A DNA stretch of 64,000 nt from Liolophura sinensis (taxonomy: Eukaryota > Mollusca > Polyplacophora > Chitonida > Chitonidae). The stretch spans positions 4,280,001 through 4,344,000 of the forward strand of contig NC_088304.1 of the NCBI RefSeq assembly GCF_032854445.1, read 5' to 3'. The translations under genes and the position numbers were made by a program. Shown here piece after piece: positions 4,645-64,000 of this stretch (the first letter of the stretch is position 1; each line of letters begins with the position of its first letter). The notes under the pieces are model-generated. The model was given only the letters and a program-made list of their open reading frames with translations, was not told the DNA's origin and did not search any database.

Positions 4645-4742
4645 GGCGGTCTCCATGGCCGAGTTGGTTAGCACGCCATGCGGCGCAATGACCCCCAAAC
4701 CTCTCACCAACTGGATCGCTATGAGTTCAGCTTGGGTGAAAC
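4645..4742 (+). mobile_element. SINE head, main family
   Basis: GGTCTCCATGGCCGAGTTGG and TTAGCACGCCATGCGGCGCA match the family head, followed by a diverged box B (GAGTTCAGCTTG). The body and tail are absent. Confidence 0.6.
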
Positions 4743-5318: not shown

Positions 5319-5428
<110 letters not shown>

Positions 5429-6199: not shown

Positions 6200-6217
6200 G
6201 AATTTATTTATTTAAGA

Positions 6218-6505
6218 TCGGTTGCCTAATGGTTAGAGCATCCACCTCGAAGTCGGGAGACAAGGGGTCAAACACGGATCAGGTCATACCGAAGAGTTTA
6301 AAAATGGTAGTTGGTTTTCAGAGATTATAGCAGAGAGACTTGAATGGTTGGCCAGGTATCAGTATAGTGTGATGCTTTAGTGGCAGCACTTTGGTGACAT
6401 GGACTCACCCTGCCACAAGAACACACAGTACATGTACAAACACCTTCATATGAGTGAAAAATTGTTAAGTACGACGTAAAACCCCAAACATACACACATT
6501 TATAC
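6218..6505 (+). mobile_element. Second tRNA-derived SINE family
   Basis: The head GGTTGCCTAATGGTTAGAGC (box A) and GGGGTCAAACACGGATC (degenerate box B) is followed by GTCATACCGAAGAGTTT and a 3' end ATGAGTGAAAAATTGTTAAG, ACGACGTAAAACCCC. Related copies lie at 33.0 kb (+), 57.7 kb (+), and 4.4 and 18.4 kb (-). A second 3' piece follows at about 6552-6645. Confidence 0.7.
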
Positions 6506-6659
6506 ACATATCCTCAGCATTGAGAGGCAATCAGAGCAAGGAATCATGACTGGTTGCGTCAACATAATTTGACTAGGAGGGTGTCATCTCTGATGTCTTC
6601 GTCGTCATATGACTGACAAATTGTTAAGAACGATGTAAAAACCAAAGCATAAATGCAAT

Positions 6660-6715
6660 CATTTATTTGTTTTTGGCATTTTACGTCGTCTTAAAGAATT
6701 TCACTTTTCACTTTT
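6660..6715 (-). mobile_element. SINE tail fragment
   Basis: TTTATTTGTTTTTGGCATTT, ACGTCGTCTTAAAGAATTTC is the reverse complement of the main-family 3' end only. Confidence 0.5.
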
Positions 6716-7415
6716 CTGTACTCCTGCAGGTAACCAAAAGTTACGTATCTTTGAAATTTAACAACATAGACTGCTGTTAAGGACCTCACAAATTATGTTG
6801 TATTGTGGGGCCTAAAAATATTTCATCTGTCAGGTTGCGCAAGAATGACGAGGATTTCTAGAGAAATTCGTACTTTCACAATTGTTCTCAAAACATTCCC
6901 AAGGCAAGGACACGCCAAGAAAATAAACTGGGTTAAATGGTTTCTCACATTGGGGTCAGAGGTGAGACATACAGATGTGCTTACAGGTACGCACTTCTTC
7001 TCGCATCGAGTGACATACACTTCTACTGATAGTTAAGATCAGGACCAAGGACGAGTCGGCAATTAGAGCACCCCACCGAAACACCTCTGTGCATGACCTT
7101 GCACAGTATACATATACAGGCTTAGTATATTCATCTCTTAATTAAAAAAATGTACAATTTTGACAACGACTTTCATCTTCTTTGAATACATGTCTTTTGG
7201 GGTAAGTGCGTGTGAATATATGTTTCACCGGGCCGGGTTCTGTTTGGGTCGTTAGAAGTGGGCAGTTGGAGTAGGGTGAATTAAGTCCGCGCACACTTAA
7301 ACTCGAGCTGTGTCCTCTCTAAAGTGCTACGGACTGTGTCGCTGGGTTTAAGGGAAGTAAATGAAGTCGGTGAGCGCGATACAAAAGACGGTTCCAGGCG
7401 TGGCTTTGCATGGAA

Positions 7416-7423
7416 TATAAAAG
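7416..7423 (+). promoter_or_regulatory. Candidate TATA box
   Basis: TATAAAAG lies 280 bases 5' of the signal-peptide ATG at 7696. It would place a start site near 7445-7455 and give a 5' leader of about 250 bases. This rests on motif and position only; no transcript evidence is available. Confidence 0.4.
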
Positions 7424-7695
7424 ACAGACGATATGTATTTTATACCCGATCTTTCCCATTGTGCGACGATATAGCGTGGTAGGCAAGATTCATTGCCCAC
7501 GACACCACCCCCACCCCCTATTACCCTGCCAGAGTTGACCTAACTCTTGCAACAAGGTTCTCCATGCGTAAGCATGGACTAGCGAACACACAGACGGATT
7601 AACGACGTCTTTGCGACCGGACAGGGAATTACCAATCTACTGGGTTTTATATCTGTCTGCGGCCGTACCGAAAACATCCCGACCCCTGGGGCATC

Positions 7696-7783
7696 ATGGG
7701 CCCGTTGGGTAGCAGACACGGCCTTCTGGTGTCCTTGTTACTAACGGCTAGTGCATTCTCTCAGGTGTCTCCTCATTCTACAG
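7696..7783 (+). CDS. Exon 1: signal peptide
   Basis: The ATG is followed by 29 codons reading MGPLGSRHG, then a hydrophobic core LLVSLLLTASAF and SQVSPHST. This is a typical Sec signal peptide, with cleavage likely just after the A-F-S stretch. It ends at CAG|GTAAGA in phase 1, which is the phase needed by exon 2. No better upstream ATG in this frame was seen. It is 6.9 kb from the next exon found, so an intervening phase 1-1 exon may have been missed. Confidence 0.72.
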
Positions 7784-10700
7784 GTAAGATTGTTTTAACG
7801 TTCCACGTGACAATGATGATCCTATCGCAGAGTATTTCGTAAAGAATCGTCCACCATCTGTTTTTTTCTTCTTTTTTTAAAGATAATACGCAACGTAATA
7901 CGACCATTTATCTTTTTAATAATAGAAGTGTGTCGTGCAATATGTACAACAAAATAATAATAATACAGTAGTAGCAACAAGTAAGGTGACCATGTTGAAT
8001 CTAACACACCTCAACTATAATGACTTTGCCAACCGACCCGTCACCAATGAAGTGGTAGGTTCATATCCAGCTCAGTTCCATTGCATCTTTTTATGTCAGG
8101 AAGTCGGCCATGTAGCAGAGCATTTGGATCCTTCTTCCATTAAATCGGATTGCCGTCGTATATAGTGAAACACCCTAGCGTACGAATTCAAACACCAGTC
8201 AAAAATAAATAAATTATTTAATTAATAAAAATAAAATAAAATAAATAAATAAATAAATGAACGAATGAATAAACAAAGAAACAAATACAGAAACAAAGAG
8301 AAAAAGAAAGAAAATAAATAAATTTAAAATATAAATAAATAAGTTAAATAAATAAAATAATAAATTCCACGTAAAATTTGAACAAGTGTTATCAAAGTAC
8401 CGGACAAATGACGCCAGGAAAGCGATCGTTAAAAATACATGCCATGCTACGGTTTTGTTATTTGCCGATATGACTGTTAAGGACTTTCTGCACGGTATAC
8501 ACGTAAAATGTACTTACGGCCATAGACCAACCGAAGCTGGATTCGAACTCTTGACACTCATAAACGTTTGCTTATGTCAGGTATTTATATGGCAGTTATT
8601 TGTATTTATTTTATATATTTTTTCTCACACATTTTACATTGAACTTGAACTGATTTTGATGGAGGCTCCATTTTAGAGAAGGAAGAGTGTGAAGGTTCAT
8701 TTTCAGAACAGATTTTATGTAAAGTCGAGTACTGCTTATCTAACTCAATAATGAGAGCCTCCGTGGCAGAATGGTTAGCGTGCCCGCTCAGAGCAATGAC
8801 CCAGGAGACTCTCATCAATGGAATCGCTGTAAGTTCAAGTCCAGCTCATACTGGCCTCTTCTCCAGTCGTGTGTGTGAAAGTATTGCATCAGCATGCGGA
8901 TGGAAGGGAAGAAAAAGAATTAAAAAAGGTTGCCATTTATCTGTCAGGAATTCAGTGTTCAGATAGACCCATATAGATGCACCATTTCTAGCTTGTTTTT
9001 AGCTAGATCTGCCTTTTCAAAATGATTTAATTTCTCGACGAGAATTATATGATTCGTGAAATCCATGAAATAGAATAATACAATTATTGATAACAAAAAG
9101 AACGGCTATGCGATACACTCGTATATACATGTAGATACAAATCTTTATAACGGTTAGGTACTTTCAGATTTTCCTGCTTGCGCAGTATCCCGTGACTTTC
9201 GTTGGTTGTATTTTGGCAAGTACGTGTGCAATTTTGTACCTAACCATGTAGTACCTATATATGCCTAACGTACACATATACCGAAACAACTCTATGGATA
9301 CAGGTCGTACATGATCCCGCTTGTCTCAAGCCAACTCTGGGTTATGGTGTATGCACGGTATAGGGTCAGTCAAGTCACCTGAGCGTGTTAAAATGAAAAG
9401 AGCTCGTTTTATAAAAGCCTTTCTTCTCAATCCCTCCCGCCTCCGACTTATCAGCGTATCGAATGACAAGAGATTGACTGTGTCCGCTATTGGGACACTT
9501 GCGACAACTGTGTACAGTAGGAATGCCATCGTCTCGGTCATTGCATAAGTTGATACGTGGTAGCCACGTTCTGACCACATGCCAAAATATAGCTATTTAA
9601 TTACATACTTCTGATGCAGTTGTCACAACAATGTGCATCATCTCTGTTTGGGCTTGGAGTGGGCCAAATATTCAGATTCACTCACAACATTTCCCTTGTA
9701 CAGTTTGATGGAACACTGCATGTTTAGTTGGCTTATTCTGTACAACAACATTTGACGTGTTAGGTGGCATTATGCGTATGTTTCTCGTTCAATATGCATT
9801 TAATGAGCTGTCGAAAAACCTGTAAAGGCCTATTTTTTAAAAGTAAATTTAACACAATATTTGTTATTTACACCACAGATTTACGTTGTAATAAAAGCAA
9901 AGTGTAATTTTCTCACATAAATCACCTTAATTTGTCAGTCAGGCTGAAATTATATAACTTTTGTTGATTTAAATAATCTTTGCGCCTGGATAATCATATT
10001 TTGTCAAACATTTTTGTCCAAGTACTTGCAAAGTGAATAATTTATACTCATATAAGATCATATTTTTTTTAAAAATGTCTTAAAACGTGACAAACTTTGG
10101 TTTGTTTAACAGAGAAGCCTACATGAGAGAAACTGAGAATTTCATTGATGTTGGCGACTTCTTAAGTGTGTTAGACCAAGGATGAAAAATGTTTAACACC
10201 TGGCCTTATGAGTATGGTTTAAACATTGAATTTGTATGAAGAATGAGACTTGTTTAAACTGTTGCGTTACATGAGTGATGAGAATTGTTTAAACTGTCGC
10301 GTTACATGAGTGATGAGAATTGTTTAAACTGTCGCGTTACATGAGTGATGAGAATTGTTTAAACTGTCGCGTTACATGAGTGATGAGAATTGTTTAAACT
10401 GTCGCGTTACATGAGTGATGAGAATTGTTTAAACTGTCGCGTTACATGAGTGATGAGAATTGTTTAAACTGTCGCGTTACATGAGGAATGAGAATTGTTT
10501 AAACTCTTGCGTTACATGAGTGATGAGAATTGTTTAAACTGTCGCGTTACATGAGTGATGAGAATTGTTTAAACTGTCGCTTTAAATGAGGTTTGAGAAT
10601 TGATTAAATGTGAAATAAACATGAGAAATTAAAATTGTTTAAACTTTCGAATTTTGTTACATGAGGAATGAAAATTGTTTAAACTGTGGCATTAGATGAG

Positions 10701-55700: not shown

Positions 55701-58700
55701 AAGTCCAGCTCATGCTGGTTTCCTTTCCAGCTGTATGTGGGAAGGTCTGTCAGCAACCTGCAGATGGTTGTGGGTCACCCCAGTGCCCTGCCCGGTTTCC
55801 TCCCACCGTAATGCTGGCCACCATCGCACAAGTGAAATATTTTTGAATACGGCGTAAAACGCCAATCAGTAAATAAATAAATATATCAGTAAAAGAAGGT
55901 TGAGGTAAAGGGAGGATTGAAATTAATGGGATGTTTAACATTTAATTAATGTATAAAAATGTGTAACACAATACTGATGAAGTATACAAACCTTCTGGTT
56001 GTTTTATTTTGTTTCTTATAGTGAGCTTCAGCGCAGTGAGCACTGCATACGGACAAAAGTATTTGACTGTTCTGTGAGTACACAGAGGTTCTACCTGGAC
56101 CAGATAAAAAACCTACAGGCTAAGGCCATAGAACAATGTGTGGATGCCCCTAAGCTTCCAGAAGAGCCGTCTTGTTCTGTCAATGCGGCCCAGGAGTGTG
56201 TTAGATCCTTCACAGCAAGTCTGGGAGTTTCTGTCCTTATGGATGAACTTTGCATGTAAGTATGCCACAGTGAACCAGACTTTTAGAATATTTAACACTT
56301 GTAAAAGATAAAATCGAAAATGTTCACACTGAGAATCTTGATATTTGGGTGGTAAAATTAATTACTTCTTTATATGAGTTTATATTTCAGATACATTTCA
56401 TTACAAATCATTCCGTCAATGTTTTGAGATTTATATTTGTCAGCGATATCCACCAAATGTTTATAAATATGTAAGATAATATATTTGAAGATGTGTTTGC
56501 GCATGTGTCATTCTCTGTTTTGTGCAGATAAAAAAGGTGTCTGTAAAGCACACTTTCATGTAAATAGACATTTCCCATGCCAGGAAATGATGTAACTTTT
56601 AGTGTTAAAACTGAATTGGTCAGAATTTTGAAGTTTATCTTTCATTATTGCTTGTATTTATATATTGCAAGAAATTTCAGTTCTTACTGACAAACATTGC
56701 CTGCAAGTAACCATTTTGGATGCCTGGAAATGTATTTATATTTTATGGAAAGGTATTTGTATTTAAACTGTGTTATATGTACAGATTAATCAGTTTCTGT
56801 ATTAATTACTGTGGTACTGAGCATTTGAGGATAACTTCACAATTTAGATATTAGAAATGGGTTTTCAACCTAATTTTTAACTTAAAATTTTGTATTTTTT
56901 ATTTTTTAAACAGAAATGTCAACTTGACCCTTGACTGCATACAAACCCGTACAGCGTTGTGCTTGGATACTCAGAAAGAGGCAGTGTCCCTAGTGTATGA
57001 GGCTCTGCGTGTGGCGCTGAGCTTGGTGGGCGGGGTTTGTGTGTATGACCCCTTACCCCCAGAGGTCGGCCCTGTCTGTCAACTGAGTGACGGGAGGGAA
57101 TGTGTTCAGGACTTCATTGATTGGATCCTGAAACCAGAGGTCAGGACAGATGAGGAGATCTGCAGGTAGGTTTCATTAAACAATATGCAATAATGTCTGA
57201 TTTCTAATTCATGTAACAACAACAACTGCAAAGCACATCATTTGAATAGAATGTCAACTTTTGTGATTATGAGAGAGATTAGAGTGGTTTAGATGTTTGT
57301 CTTTCAGTGTCTAGAACACAAGAGGTGCAGGTATTAACATGGAAGATCCATCAACAGTTTCCTATTATAACTGACATTCTCGTCCGTGAATGTATCTTTC
57401 CATCTCTGGGCCTCTCTGACCATCTGAATGTAAACCCCAGACATGACCTAGGTAAATTGAAATCCTATGCCAGTCAAAAAATCTATACAAATTCAAAGTT
57501 TAGCCTGTGAAGCGCACTTTCAGACACACATAAAGGATTGAAAACGATACTGTTGATGCCAACATTAAAAAAATTAATCAAACGTCATAAAAAGTGGTCT
57601 CATAAGGTAGATGAATCAATCAGAAAAAAAAGTTTCTTGAAACAAAGGTAAACTTTAGGTGAAATGCATTCACTACAGTGTTCAGAAAAACATGAAGACT
57701 TTGATTTACTGATTATTTCATATAATTTTTTATTTGTGTGGCCAAATGGCTGGAGATGTTCTCATCAAAGTCAGGAGACAAATGTGGAATCAAACCAGGG
57801 TCAGGTTATACCAAAGACATGTTGAGTGCAACATTAAACTTACATACATACGAACATGTAACGTCTTACTATTTACGTACATTTTGTAAGAAAATGAAAC
57901 TATGGGAAATTTTTTGCTGATCTTCCATGATATTCTACTACATAATTGGCTTCTCCTGTCTTAGTGGATTGCAGCTATAGCCCAGGCACACTGAAATCTT
58001 GTGCCAGTGGCTGGTAGCAGAAAGTGTTTACAAGGAAACAGAAACTCAACTGGTTCATGTCCTATGTGCAGAATTTTGGACATTTGTCACACAAATACTT
58101 ATTATGAATATGGGTTAATAACCTAATCTTAGTTCATACCCAGGTGGGAAGACATGCAGGTGAAAAATTCCATAGAATTAGAGGCCATTAAGTGAAAAAG
58201 AACCTTCACATAAACCTTTTTAAAGTCTAAGTTCTATGAAGCCTGTTGCAGTTATATACATTGCTTTCTTTATGTTTTCAAGCATGACTAATGAGACGTA
58301 CAGGTGTATCTCCGAGCATACTGCAGGCTGCAACTCTGTCCAGGTGGCTCCACTGGTGAATGAAGTTAAGCTGTACTTGACAGAGGTGGAGGTGGAGTGT
58401 TTGGACGTAGATCCTCCAAAACCCGGGGACAAAGACGAACTGATTGAGCTTCATCTCTGCACGGAGTCGCTCGGTGACGAGCTGACGATCGCGCTGGCAA
58501 ACCCTATGGGCCGTGGTAGAATCTGTGATCTCATCGTGGAGTTCCGTGAATGCCTGGATAGCATCCCCTCTGGTCAGATGTTGGAGATCGTCACAGACCA
58601 GGTGGACAGACTGACCCCTGTGGTACAGAGTATCTGGGATGAGCTTTGTGAGAACAGTAAGTATTGCTGACAGTGTGAAGCATCAGTGTTTGCTCCATCA

Positions 58701-61700
58701 ACAACATGTTGTCCACAACAGCTTTTCAGTTGATATGCCTTTGTTCCAGGGGAATAGATCATCAGCTGTTTCCAGTACTGGCCATGAACTGTGTCCAGGA
58801 CAGCACTGGCCATGAACTTTTTCCAGGACAGTACCAGCCTTCACCTGTTTCCTGGACAAAACTGCCCAGTTTTGACCGTGAACTTTTTGCAGGGCAGTAC
58901 CAGCCATGAACTGTTTCCAGGACAGTACCAGCCTTCACCTGTTTCCAGGACAGTACCACCTATGAACTGTTTCCATGACAGCACTGGCCATGAACTGTTT
59001 CCAGGACAGTGCTGGCCCTGAACTGTTTCCAGCATAGTCCTGGCCATGAATTGTTTCCAGGTCAGTGCTGGCCCTGAACTGTTTCCAGGATAGCCCTGGC
59101 CATGAATTGTTTCCAGGACAGTATTGGTCCTGAACTGTTTCCAGGACAGTCCTGGCTCTGAATTGTTTCCAGGACAGTATTGGCCCTGAACTGTTTCCAG
59201 GACAGGGCTGCCATGAACTGTTTCCAGGACAGTCCTGGCTCTGAATTGTTTCCAGGACAGTATTGGCCCTGAACTGTTTCCAGGACAGGGCTGTCCATGA
59301 ACTGTTTCCAGGACAGTGCTGGCTATGAACTTTTTTCAAGACAGTACTAGCCTTCACCTGTTTCCAGGACATTACTGGCCATGAACTGTAACCAGGACAG
59401 TGCTGGCCATGAACTGTAACCAGGACTGCTGGCAATGAACTTTTTCTAACACACTCTTGGCCATGAACTGTTTCCAGGACAGTACAGGCCATGAACTGTT
59501 TCCAGGACAGTGTTGGCCATGAACTTTTTCCAGGACATCACAGGCCATCAATTTTTCCTAGTTCTGATAACCTTTTATTCCCATTATAGATCATCAACTA
59601 TTCCTGGTAGTGGCTACCAGTGGTGTCCAGTGTAGTACAGGCCACCAAGTGTTCCAGGTTTGATAATCCAATGCTTCCAGGAATGCATGGTTATCAAACT
59701 TTCCCAGTTCGCTTTGTTCACTTCTTAGGTCTCCAGTGTATTGCTGAGTTGAAAAAACAAAAACAACAAAACAGTGCACAGTTTTAAAGGTTTAAGTTTT
59801 AGGAAACTTACAGCTACATACATTTAGTTCACTCAGAGACATGATGGACTGTAGCAAAAATCACAACTCTTAGTCATTGGTCATCCTTAGTAACACCTGT
59901 TATGTATGGAAACTAGAATATACTCTGATATGGTAAATCTCCACCACAGCTAAATGTGCAGATTCCTTCACCACAGACAGATAATTTGTATTTATGTCCT
60001 GTCTGTTAGCGGAGAAGAATGTTGTAAAAAATAACAATTCTTGGATCCAAATCGCAATCTGAGCCATGACCAAGGCAATCATGTGCATGAATAGATTCAT
60101 TCAGATCACTGCATAATTGCTTTTGTAAAATTGATGCATTTTCAGAGATAATGAACCAGAGAATTGATTGAAGTATGTTGATTTTATCATCATTGCCCTC
60201 TTGTGATTACAGTACCTGATCCAGACAATACAACAGTTATCCCCCCTGAACAAGGTAAGATGGTGGCCTGTGGGTAGAGCTCATGATTTCCCACCAATCT
60301 ACATGCACTTTTAGTTGGCTTAGCTTTCCCATGACGTTCCAGAAAACTTGTTGATTTTTTTTCTATGCATTCAGAAAAAGCATGAGTGTTATTCTAAGTG
60401 TCCAAGATTGTTGGGTTTATTCAGGTTGCCCATTGTCTGCACACATACATGTGTATGTAAGATGAATTGGTACCAGTCACTTGTAAAATGTCCATTTTAG
60501 ATTTAGTACTGTAAATCACCTACTAGTAGAATTTCATGGAAGTTTGGTTGGTGAAAACTCATCTGAAGATGTTTGATTTACATTAAATACGGTGCAGCTT
60601 CACATGGTTTTTCAACAACTGATACCCCTTCTGTGTAATTAGTTTGTACAGTATGTTGATTAGGAGGTGGAAATTTCCATGATATTGTAAATGATTTCTT
60701 GCAGTTGTTTTTTTTTTTCACCGTGTTTAGTTTGTTTTAATGATCAAACTTCCAATATGCACTCCAATGTATGTAGACAAATAATTCAGAACATGCTGAA
60801 ATTAAGAACGGATTTCAAATCTAATGTATCAGTGTGTGGATTTACTTGATGGATTTGGTGTCATTTATGAAAATTTTATTAATTCACAGAGCCTGAAACT
60901 TGTCGTCTGAAGAAAGCAACTCAGTGTATCACGACACAAATCTCTGAGCTGGTGGCCTACGGCGTGAATCCAATCAGTGATAGACTGGTCATTTGTGGGT
61001 AAGCCTTTGTAGTAAACAGTCACTTGCTCTATTTTAAAATCTTCACTTTTAATTTTCTGTGTGGTATGATGTATTGTGTTCTACTTTACATACTGGTAGC
61101 TGATTGGATGGTGAGATTCGTGAATATGAATTTATAGAATGCATGTAATTAATTATAAATTACAGTTAGTAGAAGGAGAATTATCCAGCATTGAGACTTA
61201 TAAAAATGCGAAAAAAAGAATCTTTATATATGTTCCAGTGGTTTTTGATACATGTTCAATTTTTTCCAAACTGAAACAAAGATTTATTTAAAAACATGAT
61301 GCTCAATCCTGCAATCAGATGAATGACAATTGCTGAGATGGAAATTCAGGAGTAGCTCCGAACTGCAGTCATGACACAGTTTTTTAGTTTTATGGAAAAC
61401 TCTATAAAGGGAAAAAAAAAATTGAAGTAAACACCTCTTAAAAACTGTTGTATTTGACTTAAAATTTTGATGCAAAAAAGTTATTTTTTGGAGCCAAATA
61501 GATGTTTAAAAACACCTTTAGTGAAGTATGATATTCATCATTTTACCTTCCAAACAGACCAGAAGTCATCTTTTTATCACGAATAGAACTCCCAGAATCC
61601 GGAAAAAATTAGTAACTTAGTTGTGAAAGAAATTTTAGGTCCAGTATCGTATATCCAAAACTGCCTTTACATTTTAGTTTTTTGACACTGCTGGTCATTG

Positions 61701-64000
61701 ATCGCCTTCTGTATGTGTTGATTGTCATCAGAAAGTACGAGAGAACCAAGGAATGCGTGGAGACATCCAGCTATAACTGTTCTAGCCAGAGGAGAGACTC
61801 ATTCAGGGATGCTGTCAGATGGGTGGAGGTGATGACAGAGACCCGCTGTGAGAAAGCCTGTGTCTTTAGCGATATTTTTGATTGCTCCTCTGATTTCTCC
61901 ACACTCCTCGCCACGGCAACCTTGGAAGGAACACTCTTGTCTGAACAGATATGTCCGTTAGTAACACTTTTTTATTATTATTTTGTCGTTAAATAAAAAT
62001 TCTGAAAGTATATGTAGCCAGAAATGAAGAATTGGAGATCATGTGTGGTCATTTGAAAATTATCATGTTGATGGCCAGTAATTTCTCTTTCTTTGAGTCG
62101 CAGTTTGAATTGCTAAATATTTTATGGGTGTTACTTGATGTCTTCTTTCATAAACCTATATTAGTACCAGGCACCTGTATATTTTACCTTAAAGATGAAT
62201 GACTTTTAAAGTTTAAATGTCATGTTTAGACCAAGAGAGGTACAAATTATTCAAAATTTGATCCCATGGGGCTAAAACCCTTTGAGGTATTAAGTTTTGA
62301 CTGACGTCAAAAAGGTCTTAATTTCAAATGTAACTGACATGGCTGCCTTTACTAGGTATTGTTCGCCGTGGTCACCTGCGAGTAATGCTTCAGGCATTTG
62401 GCAATTCCAGGATCTGTTTTTGGAGACAAAATTGATATCTTATGGTTTTTTTCCCCCAGATGGTTTTATTTGATTTATTTGCCAAAGGACAATGTAGGAA
62501 TAAAAATGCATCTTGAATATTTATTTATTTATTTGATATGGTGGAAGGAAACCATGCTGAGCCAGGGGGAAACCCACAACCGTCTGCAGGTTGCATCTTG
62601 AATATGAAGGAATGATTAATGTGTGCAAGTTTCTATATAAAGGAAGTGGATTTTTAAAACATGGGTCACCTTTACCTCTGATGTCATGTTTCAGAGCTTT
62701 AGATTCTGCCTGGGAATGCGTGGAGAGGTACGTTTCCTCATGTGATGCCGAGCAGAGCCCTCTGGTGGAGGATGTGCGTCAGCGAATCCACTCGGCCGTG
62801 GAGACTATTGGTGACCTGTGTGTTGAAGAGCAAAACTGTGATGTAGATGGGTCTGAGAAGTGTCTCTTACCACTGGTGGAGGGGCTGTTGGAGATGGGAG
62901 AAGAGGAGAAGCTGTGTCGGTAAGTGAAGTAACCAGATAGGGAAAAGCCAGTAAAACAGTCAAAATATCAATCTTGTTGGATGTGTACACCTGTTTAGAA
63001 AGTTCCCCAAGAGTGTATTTGTTGACACTGTTTTCCTATCCATTCCTTTTTCGCTCGCCCTACGAAATCATTCATTTACCAAAGTGGTTTCTGACAATCA
63101 TTTGTGGTTTTCTTCAGATTTCGTTATCATACCTGATAAATTTAGTTAGTGAGAATACAATGAATCCAATCAGTGATAATGTCATTTACCTGTACTTGTT
63201 TTCTGTGTAGTGATGTGGCCTCCGCTTTTACCTGTGTGGTCTCCATGACAACGGATTGTGGAGAAGACGAGATGAAGCCTGTGAAAAAGTCTGTGGAGTT
63301 TGTGTGGAGTATTGTGGGAGGGACCTGCCAGGATGTGACTCCGCCAATTCCCCGCCCAGGTGTCTGCCGCATCTCCGTCACAGAGCAGTGTGAAGAGTCC
63401 TACACAGAGACTGTAGCCCTGGGGCTAAGCGGAACATTGAATGATGATTATTGTGTGTATGTGTCTTCTCCTTACCTTTTAAGTGATGATTTATGAATGG
63501 CAGTGATTGTGCCTTTATTTATGAGCACAGATAACTTTCTTTCTCTGAACAAACAGCTTTGTGTTCACTTTTAAGATGTTTGACACAGATGTTCTTGTCT
63601 TTGTTCTCATAATGGGTGCTTACATCAGTACATTCATTAATTCACACTGCCAATCAGACAACAATGCATGCTCATTTGAACATTTACATACCGACACAGG
63701 GTTTCTGCTAGGTCCATTTTGCATCTGGTAAATGTACCCATCCTCTGGAAATGGATCCCCCTCAGACACAGAAAAATGTGAGAAAAAAAAAAGAATTGTC
63801 TTTTCAATGGCCTGTGGAATATTTGAATCGTTTTATAGATATTTTGATGGTAATAAATATAGTTAAACACCAAACAAACCAATCTGCACACTTGCCAAAA
63901 ACTCTTGTGTATTCGCTACATCACGGACGAGTCACGTTTTGCATCTGGTCAAAGTCTCTATTTTTGGTATGTCTGTGTTCGATACGGATGACCTAATGCA
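7696..64000 (+). CDS. Giant secreted multi-module Cys-rich protein (42 exons found, 3' incomplete)
   Basis: This is the span of one gene inferred from the exon chain listed below. The chain begins with a signal peptide and continues through nine arrays of a repeated six-cysteine module (two halves, each with a C-x7-C pair), two WAP domains, two Ly6/uPAR domains, three short linkers and three lysine-rich repeat inserts. About 3,350 codons are visible and no terminal stop is seen, so the gene continues to the right. Every exon has canonical AG/GT borders, and the phases agree throughout except inside exons 7 and 24. The product should be exported and heavily disulfide-bonded. No transmembrane segment is visible. 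I do not recognise the main module. Its helical look and Cys spacing could be compared with the insect 27-kDa hemolymph glycoprotein family, but that is a guess. Where arrays meet, a split into two genes cannot be excluded. Confidence 0.75.
8754..8925 (+). mobile_element. SINE, main family, 3'-truncated
   Basis: GAGCCTCCGTGGCAGAATGG head, GAGTCTCATCAATGG-type middle, GTAAGTTCAAGTCCAGCTCA box B, then decay after GCATGCGGATGG. Confidence 0.75.
10195..11815. repeat. 35-bp tandem array, about 45 copies
   Basis: The unit GAGAATTGTTTAAACTGTCG, CGTTACATGAGTGAT is nearly perfect at 10250-10570. It becomes more variable to about 11050, then homogeneous again in a second subfamily (GAGGAA/GAGGAATGAGAATTG). 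Each unit contains the palindrome GTTTAAAC. It lies inside intron 1. Confidence 0.93.
13085..13200 (-). mobile_element. tRNA-like SINE remnant
   Basis: GAGCTGGATTCGAGCC is the complement of a GGCTCGAATCCAGC box B, with head-like sequence downstream (AAGGCGTTGTTG region). This is a fragment only. Confidence 0.4.
14213..14720. repeat. 61-bp minisatellite derived from the 5' end of exon 2
   Basis: About eight copies of a 61-bp unit (GTACCGTAATGGTTGTTTGG, TAGGTGAAGCTGTACAATGC, GTTCTATACTCATGTAATTA) run up to the acceptor of exon 2. The last unit is the exon 2 boundary itself: GTACCGTAATTGTTGCAG, then GTTGTTTGGTAAGCGAAGC. The upstream copies lack the TTGCAG acceptor. Confidence 0.85.
14718..14820 (+). 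CDS. Exon 2: opening half-module, array A
   Basis: After TTGCAG| it reads GCLVSEAAQCTRDC... ending ...VETC with AG|GTAAGC; phase 1 in, phase 2 out. It has the C-x7-C pair (CLVSEAAQC) and the distal Cys just before the donor that mark the first half of every module. One extra Cys (TRDC) is unusual. Confidence 0.72.
15040..15335. repeat. Minisatellite ATACATCGTTTTTGTGCACA
   Basis: Units of about 23 bp, some expanded by an insert (AGCACAA...CATAATTTTTGGACTCC), repeat about ten times. The open frames on either strand here come from the repeat. Confidence 0.8.
16195..16545 (+). mobile_element. Non-LTR retrotransposon fragment (RT C-terminal region)
   Basis: One frame reads LLQKRATRVRALSPGLQQTE, PLFMTLEILNIFKLNILVKS, YNLIHD and continues to a stop at 16533-16535. 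The QKRA-R...H/QTEPLF..L.IL.I..L...... pattern is the typical tail of LINE reverse-transcriptase ORFs (the segment after the RT fold). No RT catalytic core or endonuclease is present, so this is a dead 5'-truncated copy. Confidence 0.65.
18055..18145 (+). mobile_element. SINE 3' end, main family
   Basis: GGGTTTCCCCTGGCTCTGCC, GTATAAGTGAAATATTCCTG, then (AAAT)n. Head missing. Confidence 0.7.
18440..18660 (-). mobile_element. Second SINE family copy
   Basis: The reverse complement resembles 6345-6490: both contain the GTGATGCTT/GGTGGCAGCA block, the ATGACTCCTCGTCGTC-type block, and an end running into GTTAAACCCCAAGC. Confidence 0.55.
18847..18990 (+). mobile_element. SINE head, main family
   Basis: GCGCTTCCGTAGCCGAGTGG, CAATGACCCAGGAGCCTCCC and GTGAGTTCAAGTCCAACTCA match the family. 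It breaks off after GTGGGAAGGTCC. Confidence 0.75.
19549..19648. repeat. 100-bp imperfect palindrome (hairpin/MITE-like)
   Basis: Arms of 23 bp, ATGAAGATCAACGTTAACCA at 19549 and its inverse ending at 19648, differ at a single base (GATC versus GACC). The inner sequence is also partly self-complementary. No clear target-site duplication was seen. Confidence 0.6.
20445..20545 (+). mobile_element. SINE fragment
   Basis: GCTCATGCTGACTTCCTCCC, CGTACGTGAGAAGGTG and CAGCCTGCGGATGGTC match the central part of the main family. It is diverged, with the tail reduced to ATAACTGAAATAAAACACAA. Confidence 0.55.
20608..20729 (+). CDS. Exon 3: closing half-module, array A
   Basis: TTTCAG| precedes NLRDSWNCIDRSLASC, and the exon ends ILTAIC-K with G|GTATGT; phase 2 in, phase 1 out. 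C-x7-C (CIDRSLASC) and a final Cys 23-24 residues later complete the first module. Unlike other array-closing exons it has no cap, so array A is a single module. Confidence 0.8.
20890..21155. repeat. Minisatellite GGTCCGTCAGCCAACTCCGG
   Basis: About ten copies of a 22-24-bp unit start 160 bp after the donor of exon 3, inside intron 3. Confidence 0.9.
21457..21504 (+). CDS. Exon 4: short linker
   Basis: A 48-base phase 1-1 exon between CAG| and |GTCAGT codes VGGEEPGVKPIELPAG, an acidic, proline-containing spacer with no Cys. Its phases fit between arrays A and B. Because it is small and the donor is weak, it could be optional. Confidence 0.5.
22381..22479. mobile_element. 99-bp MITE with 9-bp target-site duplication
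   Basis: Terminal inverted repeats TAGCCCTGGATGACT are perfect over 15 bp and the internal sequence is also largely palindromic. The element is flanked by the direct repeat ATGATACAT at 22372-22380 and 22480-22488. A 9-bp duplication suggests a Mutator-like (MULE) mobiliser; hAT elements usually give 8 bp. There is no coding capacity. Confidence 0.8.
22951..23041 (+). CDS. Exon 5: opening half-module, array B
   Basis: TTTCAG| then ESDSCHLEVASECISGHV... ending SSIC with AG|GTATGG; phase 1 in, phase 2 out. The CHLEVASEC pair is the standard C-x7-C. Confidence 0.85.
23515..23685 (-). mobile_element. SINE, main family, diverged
   Basis: In reverse orientation: TTTGATTGGCGATTTATGTC, CTTATACTACTGCAGCCAGC, GAGGGAAACCCACGACTGTC, CAGACCTTCCCATGTA. 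The head is lost. Confidence 0.7.
23777..24016 (+). CDS. Exon 6: closing + opening halves, array B
   Basis: A phase 2-2 exon of 240 bases, TTTCAG| to TGCAT|GTAAGG. The first half has CVSSATESC and a Cys at QLSVC; the second has CHVTRAADC and ends WSSIC. It closes module 1 and opens module 2 of the array, and it is the standard unit from which longer arrays are built. Confidence 0.88.
24567..25434 (+). CDS. Exon 7: array B closing exon with KDKTES repeats; frame interrupted
   Basis: It starts METERAIHCVEKNMDDC (C-x7-C) and closes the module at IALVC, then enters a cap: DKC...GKTC, lysine-rich (KDKTES)n from about 24815, then an acidic/Ser segment, a Cys pair CSDVDDALGC (C-x8-C) and GHC before G|GTGAGA. 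The repeat unit is 18 bp. The frame does not stay open: the first frame stops at TAA 25072-25074, the KDK pattern continues in the +1 frame from an extra A near 25055 to a stop at 25145, and the cap lies in the third frame. Total length conflicts with flanking phases by the same amount, so two one-base insertions (assembly or genuine) best explain it. Confidence 0.72.
25435..26650 (+). other. Intron 7
   Basis: Apart from a minus-strand SINE at about 26155-26335, I see no structured element in these 1.2 kb. Confidence 0.5.
26155..26335 (-). mobile_element. SINE, main family, head lost
   Basis: TTTGACTGGTGTTTTATGCC, ACTTATACGATGGCAGCCAG, GGGAAACCCACGACCATCC and CAGACCTTCCCATGTACGGC are the complement of the family body and tail. 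Confidence 0.8.
26651..26762 (+). CDS. Exon 8: opening half-module, array C
   Basis: CTGACAG| then ATSDPEPAGCVLQRVTRC... ending QRTFC with AG|GTATGC; phase 1 in, phase 2 out. CVLQRVTRC is the C-x7-C pair. Confidence 0.87.
27490..27708 (+). CDS. Exon 9: closing + opening halves, array C
   Basis: CTTCAG| SECDDVRKCMSEASEYC... to EAVC AG|GTAAAC, phase 2-2. Pairs CMSEASEYC and CQPQTALRC; an additional Cys near the start (SEC) is unusual. Confidence 0.88.
28239..28330 (+). mobile_element. tRNA-like element (SINE head or tRNA pseudogene)
   Basis: GCCCCGATAGCTCAGTCGGT gives a good acceptor-strand/box A start, with GGGTCAATCCTGG as a mutated box B. The anticodon region is disrupted by a G run (GGGGGGG), so it is not a functional tRNA. 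Confidence 0.45.
28390..28680 (+). CDS. Exon 10: closing + opening halves, array C
   Basis: GACAG| SQANITVECVQRFTASC... to KVLC AA|GTAGGT, phase 2-2. Pairs CVQRFTASC and CDSVGVSQC. The linker between halves is longer than usual and holds two extra Cys (SCSGG and SATC with intervening acidic residues), suggesting an additional disulfide. Confidence 0.87.
29144..29404 (+). CDS. Exon 11: closing + opening halves, array C
   Basis: CCCAG| NHVIQMMRCVKGNSTGC... to SEHC CT|GTGAGT, phase 2-2. Pairs CVKGNSTGC and CHMERALAC, with an extra Cys (ERC) in an acidic linker. NST and NFT are possible N-glycosylation sites. Confidence 0.88.
29663..30060 (+). CDS. Exon 12: array C closing exon with a cysteine-free cap
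   Basis: GCACAG| LRAESMLTCFRMEMSGC... closes the fourth module at GSNC, then continues for about 90 residues to KHLEG|GTAAGT (phase 1) with no Cys at all. The spacing of the cap is kept but its cysteines are replaced: Tyr where the first and second cap Cys fall (STY, TSY; both TAT codons, one step from TGT), Glu at the third. The helical leucine pattern remains. Confidence 0.83.
30727..30995 (+). mobile_element. Full-length SINE, main family
   Basis: GGCCTCCGTGGCTCAGTTGG, box A TTAGCGAGC, ATGACCCAGGAGTCTCTCAC, box B GGGTTCAAGTCC, GTACGTGGGAAGGTCTGGC, GTATAAATGAAATATTCTTG, then AAATAAATG. It ends only about 25 bases before the acceptor of exon 13. Confidence 0.93.
31020..31160 (+). CDS. Exon 13: WAP domain 1
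   Basis: TTGACAG| ESRQGSCPVLDDDVVGVC, AELC, DADC, HQLCC, NNCGHSC, ending PSS A|GTGAGT; phase 1-1. Eight cysteines with the central CC and the closing C-x3-C define a whey acidic protein/four-disulfide core domain, typically a protease inhibitor or antimicrobial module. The whole domain is one exon. Confidence 0.93.
31557..31703 (+). CDS. Exon 14: WAP domain 2
   Basis: TCGCAG| KPVFGACPHPAMPSM..., KEC, RNC, EDC, ELCC, SECGQTC, then QQAVG|GTAAGC; phase 1-1. The eight-Cys WAP pattern is complete. Placed directly after WAP 1 with matching phase, it is probably a duplicate exon, though now diverged. The residue before the closing loop does not identify a target protease. Confidence 0.93.
32143..32406 (+). 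mobile_element. SINE, main family, 5' end degraded
   Basis: GCCCTCAGTTGGTTAGTGCA, AATGACCCAGAAGCTTCTCA, GTACGTGGGAAGGTCTGCCA, GTATAAGTGAAATATTCTTG, AGTACGGCGTAAAACACC, (AAAT)n. Confidence 0.9.
32728..32757 (+). CDS. Exon 15: short linker
   Basis: A 30-base phase 1-1 micro-exon (TTTTACAG| to CCAG|GTAAGC) codes VSELRNESLPG-like spacer sequence. Both splice sites are strong and the phases fit, with NES a possible glycosylation site. Confidence 0.6.
32845..32998 (+). mobile_element. tRNA-like SINE remnant
   Basis: GAGGTCACAGGTTCAAATCC supplies a box B, followed by GGCTGGTTTTGTCATGGCTT, TATGTCAGGAGGTTTGT. Similar pieces occur near 39.0 and 46.2 kb, so a third family is likely. Confidence 0.45.
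33000..33345 (+). mobile_element. Second SINE family copy
   Basis: AAGTTGGGAGACATGGGATT, AAACCGGGATTGGGTCATAC, CAAAGACTTTAAAAATTTTA and the 3' end ATCATATGAGTGAAAAATGA parallel the copy at 6218-6505. Confidence 0.65.
33431..33536 (+). CDS. Exon 16: opening half-module, array D
   Basis: TTTTTAG| DSCDVESATECVQTFL... ending DDLVC AG|GTAAGT; phase 1 in, phase 2 out. CDVESATEC is the C-x7-C pair. The last 47 bases and the donor belong to an 88-bp tandem repeat that continues into the intron. Confidence 0.9.
33490..33915. repeat. 88-bp tandem repeat made from the 3' end and donor of exon 16
   Basis: About five units. The first includes the exon end GTTTGATGATTTGGTCTGCA|G and donor. Later units carry GTTTGAGGATTTTTCTGCCC (donor lost), and the last recovers TTTGATGACTTTGTCTGCAG followed by GTAAGT at 33887. 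A duplicated canonical donor therefore exists 350 bp downstream of the true one. Confidence 0.85.
34310..35115. repeat. 40-bp minisatellite, about 20 copies
   Basis: The unit GATAAGTGACTTTTATTTTT, ATAAGCACCATGATGATTAT is tandemly repeated with two main variants (CACCATGATG and CATCATGTTG) that tend to alternate, suggesting higher-order 80-bp units. It ends about 80 bp before exon 17. Confidence 0.94.
35194..35445 (+). CDS. Exon 17: closing + opening halves, array D
   Basis: ATTTCAG| RGLTTLEECTMKSIPSC... to TAVC GA|GTGAGT, phase 2-2. Pairs CTMKSIPSC and CMPHVAHRC, with a closing Cys at NTLC. Confidence 0.88.
35682..35909 (+). CDS. Exon 18: closing + opening halves, array D
   Basis: CTGGCAG| ELVDYILECVQKTGMTC... 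to TNFC GG|GTGAGT, phase 2-2. Pairs CVQKTGMTC and CSVRGFWSC. The opening half is unusually short (only 8 residues between its second and third Cys). Confidence 0.86.
36104..36483 (+). CDS. Exon 19: array D closing exon with intact cap
   Basis: TTGTAG| NIQQKFGCYSQNLVGC closes the module at DEC, followed by the cap: FKC, 24 residues, IDIC, RHIDALTL, C (C-x8-C) and SSARC about 31 residues later. It ends GAA A|GTAAGT in phase 1. This is the clearest example of the cap, C-x24-C-x8-C-x31-C, uninterrupted by low-complexity sequence. Confidence 0.85.
37354..37442 (+). CDS. Exon 20: Ly6/uPAR domain 1, N-terminal part
   Basis: TTGGTAG| KMQIPLVCHSCHGDADQSC, EDTEVC, ending DQR|GTGAGT; phase 1 in, phase 0 out. 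L-x-C-x2-C followed by two spaced Cys is the start of a three-finger (Ly6/uPAR) domain, and an intron at this point is common in that family. The same split and phases are found in the second domain at 51881-52541. Confidence 0.85.
37568..37830 (+). mobile_element. Full-length SINE, main family (near consensus)
   Basis: GGCCTCCGTGGCTCAGTCGG, GCGCTAGCGCAGCGTAATGA, CTGTGAGTTCAAGTCCAGCT, GGTCGTGGGTTTCCCCCGG, GTATAAGTGAAATATTCTTG, AGTACGGCGTAAAAAACACC. Among the least diverged copies here. Confidence 0.95.
38743..38959 (+). CDS. Exon 21: Ly6/uPAR domain 1, C-terminal part
   Basis: CTTCAG| SCITIRDEAAGSVTRGC, EAC, NRC, DRQC, WECC, TPGCNN, then a tail to LPEG|GTAATC; phase 0 in, phase 1 out. The terminal CC-x5-CN signature completes the three-finger fold. 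The tail of about 22 residues is a linker, not a GPI signal, so the domain is internal. Confidence 0.88.
38990..39165 (+). mobile_element. tRNA-like SINE remnant
   Basis: CAGGTTGCTGGATCAAATCC is box-B-like, followed by TTTGGCTGTGGCTTTAAGTC, AGGGGGATATG and a CAAACAAATAAAC tail. Resembles the third family at 32.85 kb. Confidence 0.45.
39764..39872 (+). CDS. Exon 22: opening half-module, array E
   Basis: TTCATAG| ETSSCPVSVFAKCVTRFV... ending GIQC GG|GTAAGT; phase 1 in, phase 2 out. Pair CPVSVFAKC. Confidence 0.87.
40665..40735 (+). mobile_element. tRNA-like sequence
   Basis: AGCCTGGTGGTAGAAGTGTG and ACTGGTTCAAATCCTCAGC give recognisable A and B boxes about 35 bases apart. No cloverleaf I would trust; a SINE head or tRNA pseudogene. 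Confidence 0.35.
40827..41057 (+). CDS. Exon 23: closing + opening halves, array E
   Basis: TTTCAG| GKLTEEALRSCSDSLSDC... to EDVC CT|GTGAGT, phase 2-2. The closing half has C-x6-C (CSDSLSDC), the only closing pair in the gene that is not x7. The opening pair CDVEAAFSC is normal. It contains no in-frame ATG near its start, so a simple ORF search would miss it. Confidence 0.85.
41270..41457 (+). mobile_element. SINE, main family, internally deleted
   Basis: GGCATCCGTGGCTCAGTTGG head and GTGAGTTCAAGTCCAGCTC box B join directly to TGCCCGGTTTCCTCCCATCA and the normal tail. About 75 bp of the body is missing. Confidence 0.9.
42054..43133 (+). CDS. Exon 24: array E closing exon with KTKESGG repeats; frame interrupted
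   Basis: TTTCTAG| LLTETSLADTIHCIKEKTAKC closes the module at QGC; the cap begins at ATC and runs into about 30 copies of a 21-bp unit coding KTKESGG, then SHGGKSGGGSS..., KARC, VNC, CDLDTAAVC and GQAC before GCA G|GTAAGC. The frame fails twice: the module frame enters the repeat out of register (near 42246-42263) and stops at TAA 42358; a one-base loss near 42335 shifts the repeat into the frame that is open to the donor. Length conflicts with flanking phases accordingly. Sequencing or assembly error, or a damaged allele. Confidence 0.7.
43134..44502 (+). other. Intron 24
   Basis: It holds a minus-strand SINE at about 43606-43745 and an uninterrupted run of 18 G at 43915-43932. Otherwise it is unremarkable AT-rich sequence. 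Confidence 0.5.
43606..43745 (-). mobile_element. SINE, main family, head lost
   Basis: TTTGATTGGTGTTTTCGGCC, ACTCATACGACAGTGGCCAG, GGCAGAACCTGGGGGAAAC are the complement of the family body and tail. Confidence 0.75.
44503..44614 (+). CDS. Exon 25 (tentative): opening half-module, array F
   Basis: An exon with phase 1 in and phase 2 out is required between exons 24 and 26. This frame reads EVCVMPVGKACIRYT... FC, with a C-x7-C pair (CVMPVGKAC) and a third Cys 16 residues on. The only phase-compatible limits are GCCAG| and AAG|GTTGAG, giving 112 bases, a normal size. Both splice sites are weak, and a stronger donor inside (CAG|GTATGA at 44549) would lose the third Cys. Confidence 0.45.
45331..45588 (+). 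CDS. Exon 26: closing + opening halves, array F
   Basis: CTTTCAG| SMIPKSVTCVRDHTRNC... to DVLC AG|GTATGT, phase 2-2. Pairs CVRDHTRNC and CNVKKAVSC with one extra Cys (DQC) in the linker. Confidence 0.88.
45595..45985. repeat. 25-27-bp minisatellite beginning at the donor of exon 26
   Basis: Units of ACCATTACATTCTACTGACC, AGCTG repeat about 14 times, starting within ten bases of the splice donor (GTATGTACATTCTGCTGACC). Confidence 0.88.
45985..46160 (+). mobile_element. SINE, main family, diverged
   Basis: GTTGCTGTGAGTTCAAATGC, GGAAGGTCTGCAAGCAAGTT, GGTGAAATATTC, (AAAT)n tail; the head is replaced by the minisatellite. Confidence 0.65.
46200..46345 (+). mobile_element. Third SINE-like family fragment
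   Basis: GGCTTAAAATCAGGAGGTTT, GTCAGG, CGTATAAGTGAAAAATTCGT, TTAGCATTAAACATGAAATA; resembles the piece at 32.85 kb with a related 3' end. Confidence 0.4.
46645..47441 (+). CDS. Exon 27: array F closing exon with intact KEKGPS repeats
   Basis: CCACAG| RQVIDTKTCVYKHMKEC closes the module at SDQC. The cap starts DQC-PALLTGL, then (KEKGPS)n runs for about 23 copies of an 18-bp unit from 46848 to 47275, followed by CHSAEVSFHC (C-x8-C) and EQKC, ending AAA G|GTGAGT. The entire 797 bases stay in one open frame consistent with phase 2 in and phase 1 out, which shows such inserts are tolerated in the protein. Antisense frames of 160 residues here are repeat shadows. Confidence 0.9.
47515..47730 (+). 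mobile_element. SINE, main family, diverged
   Basis: AGTTAGCAAGCCAGCATGGT, AATCTCTCACCAATGCAGTC, CCAGCTCATGCTGGTTTCCT, GTATGTGCGAAATATTCTTG. Confidence 0.75.
48170..48322 (+). mobile_element. SINE 3' part, main family
   Basis: AACCTGTGGATTGTCGTGGA, GGCTCTGCCCAGTTTCGTCC, AGTGAAATATTCTTGAGAAT, CACCAATCAAATAAATAAAT. Confidence 0.8.
48467..48563 (+). CDS. Exon 28: opening half-module, array G
   Basis: CTTGTAG| EPETCLQHEAFGCILGF... ending TILC AG|GTAACC; phase 1 in, phase 2 out. Pair CLQHEAFGC. Confidence 0.86.
48854..49075 (+). CDS. Exon 29: closing + opening halves, array G
   Basis: TTTTCAG| SHHSFDSIELCVRRSILKC... to SEMC TC|GTAAGT, phase 2-2. Pairs CVRRSILKC and CEAEQAVHC. The coding frame differs from the longer open frame over the same bases (48728-48955), which is a shadow. 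Confidence 0.86.
50369..50587 (+). CDS. Exon 30: closing + opening halves, array G
   Basis: TTTGCAG| NLNASLECVSKHTTHC... to DQFC AC|GTAAGT, phase 2-2. Pairs CVSKHTTHC and CDMKSVREC; CSC at the module junction. Confidence 0.88.
50982..51376 (+). CDS. Exon 31: array G closing exon with intact cap
   Basis: GCTTCAG| TSVNNAVECALETTSHC closes the module at RAVC; the cap reads ANC, 23 residues, TTQC, SALRELVK, C (C-x8-C), then ESEC, ending GCA G|GTATTA in phase 1. Same cap as exon 19, without low-complexity sequence. Confidence 0.88.
51450..51830. repeat. ~95-110-bp tandem repeat, four units
   Basis: Each unit contains AAAGCACAATGACAAG, TTCCATCACTGGGGCTCTGT, GAGCATATCACTGAG and TTTGAGCTCAGGTTTTGCAT followed by ACAGGTAAAG. 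The last piece is a donor-like CAG|GTAAAG, so several decoy donors follow the true donor of exon 31. Confidence 0.9.
51881..51972 (+). CDS. Exon 32: Ly6/uPAR domain 2, N-terminal part
   Basis: TTGACAG| GPPPLTCYRCHRLSSNEEC, TEVC, ending NKQ|GTAAAT; phase 1 in, phase 0 out. L-x-C-x2-C-x8-C-x6-C matches exon 20, including a shared TEVC. Confidence 0.87.
52349..52541 (+). CDS. Exon 33: Ly6/uPAR domain 2, C-terminal part
   Basis: TTTCCAG| ACETVIDDKGSG..., KGC, NAC, WHCCRDNLCN, then a Pro/Val-rich linker to MPG|GTGAGG; phase 0 in, phase 1 out. CC-x4-CN completes the three-finger domain. As in domain 1, no GPI-type hydrophobic tail follows. Confidence 0.9.
53699..53968 (+). mobile_element. Full-length SINE, main family
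   Basis: GGGCCTCCGTGGCTCAGTTG, TTAGCGCGCTAGCGCAGCGT, a 13-bp internal duplication around CAGAAACC, GTGAGTTCAAGCCCATCTCA, GTATAAGTGAAATATTCTTG, then the tail. Confidence 0.93.
54140..54235. repeat. Three-copy tandem repeat
   Basis: CCATATTAGCCCATGACAAA, ATACACGAACCTG repeated three times, the last copy diverging at its end. Confidence 0.85.
54373..54478 (+). CDS. Exon 34: opening half-module, array H
   Basis: GATTCAG| EPSSCDLSLVSQCLQTSS... ending GGC CT|GTGAGT; phase 1 in, phase 2 out. Pair CDLSLVSQC; an extra Cys (PYC) just before the last one. Confidence 0.86.
55120..55310 (-). mobile_element. SINE, main family, degraded
   Basis: TTTGATTGGCATTTATAACA, AGGAGAAACCCATGACCATC, GATCTTTCCACGTACGG and CTTGACTTGAACTCGTAACA are the complement of tail, body and box B. 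Confidence 0.65.
55665..55890 (+). mobile_element. SINE, main family, 5'-truncated
   Basis: GAGTCTCTCACCAATGCAGT, GTGAGTTCAAGTCCAGCTCA, GTATGTGGGAAGGTCTGTC, AAGTGAAATATTTTTGAATA, CGGCGTAAAACGCC, (AAAT)n. Confidence 0.88.
56022..56255 (+). CDS. Exon 35: closing + opening halves, array H
   Basis: CTTATAG| LELQRSEHCIRTKVFDC... to DELC AT|GTAAGT, phase 2-2. Pairs CIRTKVFDC and CSVNAAQEC. Confidence 0.89.
56914..57165 (+). CDS. Exon 36: closing + opening halves, array H
   Basis: AAACAG| NVNLTLDCIQTRTALC... to DEEIC AG|GTAGGT, phase 2-2. Pairs CIQTRTALC and CQLSDGREC. NLT near the start is a glycosylation candidate. Confidence 0.89.
57735..57850 (+). mobile_element. Second SINE family fragment
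   Basis: AAAGTCAGGAGACAAATGTG, GAATCAAACCAGGGTCAGGT, ATACCAAAGACATGTTGAGT follow the order of the copies at 6.2 and 33.0 kb. Confidence 0.55.
58283..58656 (+). CDS. Exon 37: array H closing exon with intact cap
   Basis: TTTTCAAG| SMTNETYRCISEHTAGC closes the module at EVEC, then LHLC, 21 residues, GRIC, DLIVEFRE, C (C-x8-C) and DELC near the end, AAC A|GTAAGT in phase 1. The acceptor is AAG rather than CAG. Confidence 0.87.
58657..60212 (+). other. Intron 37
   Basis: Its first 900 bases are occupied by the 28-30-bp minisatellite described separately. The remaining 650 bases show nothing recognisable. Confidence 0.55.
58775..59545. repeat. 28-30-bp minisatellite TGAACTGTTTCCAGGACAGT
   Basis: About 27 copies with spacer variants (GCTGGCCA, ACCAGCCT, CTTCACC). 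Each unit carries GTTTCCAG|GACAG, an acceptor-like string, so intron 37 has more than 20 decoy acceptors. Long open frames on both strands over this region are repeat artefacts. Confidence 0.93.
60213..60254 (+). CDS. Exon 38: short linker
   Basis: A 42-base phase 1-1 exon (TTACAG| to CAAG|GTAAGA) codes PDPDNTTVIPPEQG preceded by a split Ile codon. Proline-rich with NTT, a glycosylation candidate. Strong splice sites. Confidence 0.62.
60890..60998 (+). CDS. Exon 39: opening half-module, array I
   Basis: TTCACAG| EPETCRLKKATQCITTQI... ending LVIC GG|GTAAGC; phase 1 in, phase 2 out. Pair CRLKKATQC. The EPETC start matches exon 28. Confidence 0.88.
61732..61956 (+). CDS. Exon 40: closing + opening halves, array I
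   Basis: CATCAG| GKYERTKECVETSSYNC... to EQIC CC|GTTAGT, phase 2-2. Pairs CVETSSYNC and CVFSDIFDC; closing Cys at ETRC and an extra one at EKAC. Confidence 0.87.
62517..62600 (-). mobile_element. SINE fragment
   Basis: TTTATTTATTTATTTGATAT, GGTGGAAGGAAACCATGCTG, AGGGGGAAACCCACAACCGT: complement of the main-family tail and mid-body with an internal deletion. Confidence 0.65.
62695..62919 (+). CDS. Exon 41: closing + opening halves, array I
   Basis: TTTCAG| ALDSAWECVERYVSSC... to EKLC CG|GTAAGT, phase 2-2. Pairs CVERYVSSC and CDVDGSEKC. Confidence 0.89.
63211..63456 (+). CDS. Exon 42: closing + opening halves, array I (last exon found)
   Basis: GTGTAG| RDVASAFTCVVSMTTDC... to DDYC GT|GTATGT, phase 2-2. 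Pairs CVVSMTTDC and CRISVTEQC. Because it ends in phase 2 with an open module, at least one further exon must lie beyond the window. Confidence 0.87.
63457..64000 (+). other. Start of the next intron
   Basis: No acceptor followed by a C-x7-C half-module is visible in these 544 bases. Nothing else recognisable. Confidence 0.5.

Follow-up and report, generated by a model that had tools for sequence, protein, structure and literature searches.

A 64,000-nucleotide stretch of the genome of the chiton Liolophura sinensis (assembly GCF_032854445.1, contig NC_088304.1, positions 4,280,001 to 4,344,000; hereafter the window) carries on its forward strand the upstream part of a very large gene built from a repeated six-cysteine (six-Cys) module. 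Exons were located with a splice-aware finder written for this analysis and trained on Cys-rich cores, and its output was curated by hand. Within the window, 41 spliced exons were obtained, 25 at 7696-42273 and 16 at 45331-63456, each of the two stretches being open in one frame; the stop-free spliced stretches comprised 1468, 1983 and 640 codons. The first-pass annotation of this DNA had placed a giant secreted protein of 42 spliced exons at 7696..63456. Its ATG at 7696 and its exon end at 63456 were exact and the exons were spliced and open in frame, but 41 exons were counted here and the gene ran about 84 kb further.

The first exon (7696-7783) was found by translation to contain a start codon and a signal-peptide-like segment, with a hydrophobic core of mean Kyte-Doolittle hydropathy (KD) 2.3 over 10 residues and a phase-1 donor of score 7.3. 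It is followed by nine arrays of the module. Array 1 (14718-20729) consists of one six-Cys unit in exons 14718-14820 and 20608-20729. Exon 14718-14820 is the least certain of all exons and adjoins a 61-bp tandem repeat at 14199-14714, just upstream, whose repeat unit resembles the exon start; either a piece of this exon may have spread into the intron by amplification, or repeat sequence may have been mistaken for an exon. Array 2 (22951-25434) has two six-Cys units and a terminal unit interrupted by a coding-looking Lys/Asp/Glu-rich tandem repeat with an 18-bp period (24813-25077), at the end of which the frame changes. Array 3 (26651-30060) contains four six-Cys units, its terminal stretch (29780-30060) being free of Cys, and is followed by two WAP domains in exons 31020-31160 and 31557-31703 (31020-31703), which were matched by Pfam WAP (PF00095) in two stretches with an expectation value (E) of 2e-12 and passed the Pfam cut-off (47.6 bits vs 20.8). 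Array 4 (33431-36483) has three six-Cys units and a four-Cys terminal unit. A Ly6-like domain in exons 37354-37442 and 38743-38959 (37354-38959) was recognized by reading of the letters, and Pfam gave no match for this copy. Array 5 (39764-42273) has two six-Cys units, and behind it lies a coding-looking Lys/Glu/Ser/Gly-rich tandem repeat with a 21-bp period (42264-42921), where the frame changes again; a candidate exon at 44508 was discarded because it was without splice sites. Array 6 (45331-47441) comprises a half unit, one six-Cys unit and a terminal unit bearing a coding-looking Lys/Glu/Gly/Pro repeat with an 18-bp period (46858-47273), and array 7 (48467-51376) has three six-Cys units and a four-Cys terminal unit. 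A second Ly6-like domain in exons 51881-51972 and 52349-52541 (51881-52541) was matched by the three-finger family PF00087 (E 1.7e-7) and passed its cut-off (32.3 bits vs 21.2). Array 8 (54373-58656) has three six-Cys units and a four-Cys terminal unit in exons 54373-54478, 56022-56255, 56914-57165 and 58283-58656, and array 9 (60890-63456), with exons 60890-60998, 61732-61956, 62695-62919 and 63211-63456, contains three complete units and runs past the window. Both were identified by splicing and by coding constraint (see below), and unit 62837-63328 of array 9 was also modeled with AlphaFold. The signal-peptide-like start and the WAP and Ly6 domains had all been named in the first-pass annotation and were supported.

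When the exons were spliced and checked by hand, 22 complete six-Cys units were counted within the window. Read across introns, the unit has the form Ca-x7-Cb-x~18-Cc-x8-Cd-x7-Ce-x22-Cf, with an intron directly after Cc. Over the 22 units, the spacing was Ca-x7-Cb in 22, Cc-x8-Cd in 19, Cd-x7-Ce in 21, and Ce-x22-Cf in 15 with x25 in three more; the unit pattern permitted only x6-7 and x7 for the C-x7-C pairs, so that the search itself in part determines these pair counts, while a looser scan for halves permitted x6-8. The lone departure of the second pair (x6) was located in exon 40827-41057 of array 5. In 20000-63500, the strict pattern C-x7-C-x14-26-C occurred 44 times on the forward strand and 0 times on the reverse strand, compared with a mean of 2.6 and a maximum of 7 in 100 dinucleotide shuffles. 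Apart from the Cys, the units have diverged: in an alignment of 24, including five that lie downstream of the window, the mean column identity was 30%. The folding unit is in a different register from the exon unit, since the intron lies inside it and C-x8-C spans the junction. The constant x8 over the splice site also supports the junctions. It had been claimed earlier that about 23 copies of a module made of two C-x7-C halves are present and that these pairs are near-invariant. The repeat is real and the second pair was near-invariant with the sole x6 where it had been reported, but the complete units numbered 22, and the two halves are halves of exons and not of the fold, the intron-spanning C-x8-C having been missed.

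The exon phases were regular: an exon running from phase 1 to phase 2 starts an array, exons of phase 2 to 2 lengthen it, and an exon of phase 2 to 1 ends it. A phase-2 donor was found in 23 of the 29 listed module exons, and a Cys codon stood immediately before it in 23 of 23, compared with 10% of 532 background donors, a count to be read with the training of the finder on Cys-rich cores and the choice of some exon edges by motif in mind. Among 43 C-x8-C anchors, the first and fifth Cys were both present in 28, both absent in 11, and present singly in four. By eye, three of the 11 were Ly6 or false anchors, and the four single cases were false anchors (two) or had loops too short for the scan (two). 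Eight terminal units in six families were without both Ca and Ce; such units close most arrays, the Cys-free end of array 3 being one variant. Because Ca and Ce are missing together from the terminal units, a Ca-Ce disulfide in the six-Cys units is suggested. When the chiton genome was searched with three queries, no further gene with the module was found outside this locus. One weak place (C6:35636358) was read and rejected, and a second weak place (C5:18907437) was among the matches.

An exon block of about 8.66 kb was found in tandem at 62658-73499 and 71313-82158 (window coordinates, mostly beyond the window), 98.7% identical over 10.9 kb. Tandem copies were compared in six pairings, and the ratio of nonsynonymous to synonymous divergence (dN/dS) was 0.20-0.30 in each; the two copy B exons that single-base insertions disrupt were omitted, and only eight differences separate copies B and C. 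Therefore, the exons code. The synonymous divergence (dS) of copies B and C was 0.011, which would make their duplication very recent. Copy B had three single-base insertions in two exons and was otherwise identical to its sister copy; an assembly or read error is possible at these insertions. The gene also shows the growth of a giant protein via phase-matched exon-block duplication, with one copy pair about 1% diverged at synonymous sites.

Reading of the flanking DNA revealed that more arrays and Ly6-like exons continue to about 99 kb (window coordinates). After that, there are two cassettes, each consisting of a unit half, a stretch that reads as beta-like, a VWD domain, a helical-looking stretch and an EGF domain. 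The VWD of cassette 1 was matched by PF00094 with E 1.7e-8 and 35.3 bits (cut-off 22.9), and the scanned part of the cassette 2 VWD scored 21.4 bits, slightly under the same cut-off. The EGF domains, too, were recognized at Pfam level. The VWD domains carry ADPH and NDPH, and the basic motifs that follow each VWD may be furin-type sites. The segment at 147431-147560 is hydrophobic, with a mean KD of 3.0 over 19 residues, and is a predicted C-terminal membrane helix. The spliced or listed pieces total 1468 + 1983 + 640 + 1811 residues, with 71-84 kb not among them. As read from DNA alone, a single chiton gene spanning about 140 kb most likely encodes a giant extracellular protein. The proposal of a secreted giant protein thus agrees with the signal-peptide-like start as far as an extracellular location is concerned, but the word secreted became uncertain with the predicted membrane helix outside the window. 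The biomineralization or defence role that had been suggested found no support in the sequence analysis.

AlphaFold modeling of the unit in its fold register, with an alignment of 17 window units, gave a mean predicted local distance difference test (pLDDT) of 91.9 and a predicted template modeling score (pTM) of 0.75. The six-Cys unit is predicted to be a compact helix bundle, in which the fifth Cys sits in the linker ahead of the last helix. A four-Cys terminal unit was modeled with a pLDDT of 73.7 and three helices. Pfam and AlphaFold on single modules were among the checks proposed in the first-pass annotation; they yielded this helix bundle and no confident family match, and the commonest sub-threshold Pfam match was RGM_N (PF06535), the growth-factor-binding N-terminal domain of the repulsive guidance molecules (RGM proteins: RGMA, RGMB and hemojuvelin), found in five of the 24 units and in one of seven further units (five six-Cys and two four-Cys). 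In all six matches, two of which are in copies of one duplicated block, the starting position in the unit exceeds that in the profile by exactly 3 residues. This offset is expected because the first pair is x7 in the unit and x4 in RGM. When PDB was searched with a profile of the 24 units and an E limit of 10, the five matches were all RGM sequences (best 0.0041). A 70-residue piece of RGMB, aligned as C-x22-C-x8-C-x7-C, scored 20.8 bits, whereas 200 Cys-preserving column permutations scored at most 19.5 (0 of 200). The module had been called unrecognized; no unit passed a Pfam cut-off, but in the fold register it resembles the RGM N-domain.

The chiton's own RGM was located at C8:49075191 (RGM_N 52.7 bits), with the spacing C-x4-C-x27-C-x8-C-x7-C-x21-C and a GDPH motif. 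The unit is like RGM_N in being helical by prediction, in having six Cys and in sharing C-x8-C-x7-C, and its last gap is x22 vs x21; it is unlike RGM_N in its first pair (x7 vs x4 in the chiton RGM), in being without the RGD/RGN-L motif and in its tandem arrays. At the level of the whole protein, a VWD-type part comes after N-domain-like units in the chiton gene, and the chiton RGM likewise has a VWD-like part after its N-domain, a part of RGM which we take to be akin to VWD. RGM proteins are defined by one N-domain, a VWD-like C-domain with GDPH and a glycosylphosphatidylinositol (GPI) anchor, whereas the chiton protein carries a predicted membrane helix as well as many units, VWD domains with ADPH or NDPH, and WAP, Ly6 and EGF domains.

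Matches to other families were fewer. CPG4 (PF15481) and DUF1397 (PF07165) each matched two of the 24 units weakly over the middle four Cys and under cut-off, with best values of 0.00039 (21.3 bits vs 32.7) and 0.014 (15.2 bits vs 25.7), respectively; like the RGM_N matches, those of DUF1397 and one of the pair from CPG4 begin at the second Cys region. Ten other Pfam families gave one weak match each among the 24 units. The genome search yielded a sole CPG4 place (C5:19075271), rejected by eye, and two sub-threshold DUF1397 places. For six exon-register stretches, Pfam returned a single chance match (DUF4456, 0.2); NCBIfam gave four unrelated matches for the 24 units (best 0.03), and PDB, searched with a lone unit, yielded an unrelated protein in two entries (0.77-0.79). 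No paper on such a protein was found among the literature matches listed, which need not mean that none exists.

We consider it rather probable that the gene encodes a giant extracellular chain of RGM-N-like beads, which would serve as an extended, multivalent scaffold at the surface or in shed form. The units would be related, though distantly, to the RGM N-terminal domain and would have been amplified into rigid beads by tandem exon-block duplication; most arrays would close with four-Cys units, WAP, Ly6 and charged repeats would lie between or inside arrays, and the VWD/EGF cassettes would adjoin the membrane in a protein with a predicted signal peptide and C-terminal membrane helix. From its domain content, the protein may act in matrix, mucus or a cell coat, either membrane-anchored or shed. 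A scaffold or coat fits best because of the disulfide-rich beads, the charged repeats, and the WAP, Ly6 and VWD/EGF domains near a membrane helix. RGM N-domains are important in BMP signalling and iron metabolism. If the proposal is true, dozens of RGM-N-like tandem units together with VWD in a mollusc would provide an evolutionary context for the fold and a natural repeat scaffold.

Several results weigh against this proposal. No unit exceeded the RGM_N gathering cut-off of 24.2 bits, the six matching units scoring 13.3-18.1, and the Pfam scan of whole arrays gave no RGM_N match at E up to 1. When five units were added to the PDB profile, RGM was still first at 0.013, with chance matches from 0.11, and the signal was not strengthened. 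The chiton's own RGM scored 5.7 bits against the unit profile, and 26 of 200 permutations scored equally or better. The hhalign profile-profile comparison was weak (local probability 3.5-32%, global 0.4-1.2%), and in a control in one direction five of 60 and six of 60 permuted profiles reached the real score. DSSP assigned four helices to the unit model (3-8, 11-18, 23-41 and 46-66, the first two short), whereas the RGMB N-domain is described in PMC7354924 as three helices with three disulfides; in RGMs the linker before the third helix, according to PMC7354924 and PDB alignments, comes after the fifth Cys and holds a ligand contact. Foldseek/VIA with two models listed generic helix bundles only and did not list RGM; the 32 and 132 chains that went into the comparison included none of RGM. 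The BMP-contact motif R-G-D/N-L, which follows the fifth Cys in RGM, was found in 0 of 24 units. As for the gene model, no satisfactory exon chain was obtained by the finder and curation at 42273-45331, and the open frame shifts near 25056 and near 42250-42340, in both cases at a tandem repeat. Because no unit reached the cut-off and none had the contact motif, the unit is not classed as a member of RGM_N; its kinship with the RGM N-domain is likely but unproven.

The units may instead represent an independent, lineage-specific disulfide-rich helix bundle, the likeness to RGM being convergent Cys spacing. This is conceivable but not the likelier case, since RGM leads both PDB profile searches, no permutation that preserves the Cys matched the RGMB score, and one register is common to all six RGM_N matches. 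The matches of CPG4 and DUF1397, and their common start at the second Cys region, leave some room for a broader superfamily of secreted, helical six-Cys domains (RGM_N, CPG4, DUF1397) in which the module would be nearer CPG4 or DUF1397 than RGM. However, all of these matches were under cut-off and in few units, and the genome searches added one rejected place and two sub-threshold ones, so that we regard this placement as unlikely.

The finding that RGM N-domains bind BMP2 and GDF5, reported in PMC7354924, together with the RGM lead in sequence, would suit a multivalent BMP/TGF-beta-family trap or co-receptor of RGM-like beads; with the contact motif missing from every unit compared, this role seems very unlikely. 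It is also improbable that two or more genes are involved, a module-array gene and a separate gene for a VWD/EGF membrane protein. The linking exons at 96207-100201 are uncertain in our home-made model, but the exons ahead of the two VWD cassettes come in one and the same order, a unit half leading into the same kind of domain; their phases agree for cassette 2, and the letters are compatible for cassette 1. A broader form of the RGM-N-like bead proposal, to which we give rather little credence, places the RGM N-domain, as a single branch, in an unrecognized secreted superfamily with CPG4, DUF1397 and the chiton module; in chitons it would have been amplified into a giant membrane-anchored array ahead of VWD cassettes. 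The gene would then be a relic of an RGM-like architecture of N-domain plus VWD, forming a multivalent ligand-binding coat.

Proteins with VWD and EGF, presumably to be called VWDE-like, share these domains with the C-terminal cassettes, whereas the giant N-terminal module arrays set the chiton gene apart from them. A related gene at C6:75683477 (C6:75675001-75685000, stretch positions 4610-8779) has a similar beta-like stretch and VWD cassette in the GDPH form, and no six-Cys units were seen by eye in the 8 kb upstream of it. Beyond the gene, at about 169968-173532 (window coordinates), there are open frames which, as an impression from the letters, resemble a mobile-element DNA polymerase. 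Elsewhere in the assembly, the mitochondrial contig reads under invertebrate code 5, with a gene order that is probably ancestral-molluscan. Mitochondrial COX1 occurred seven times in contig C99 at intervals of about 15.5 kb and a single time in C632, a pattern that would fit mitochondrial copies joined head to tail during assembly.
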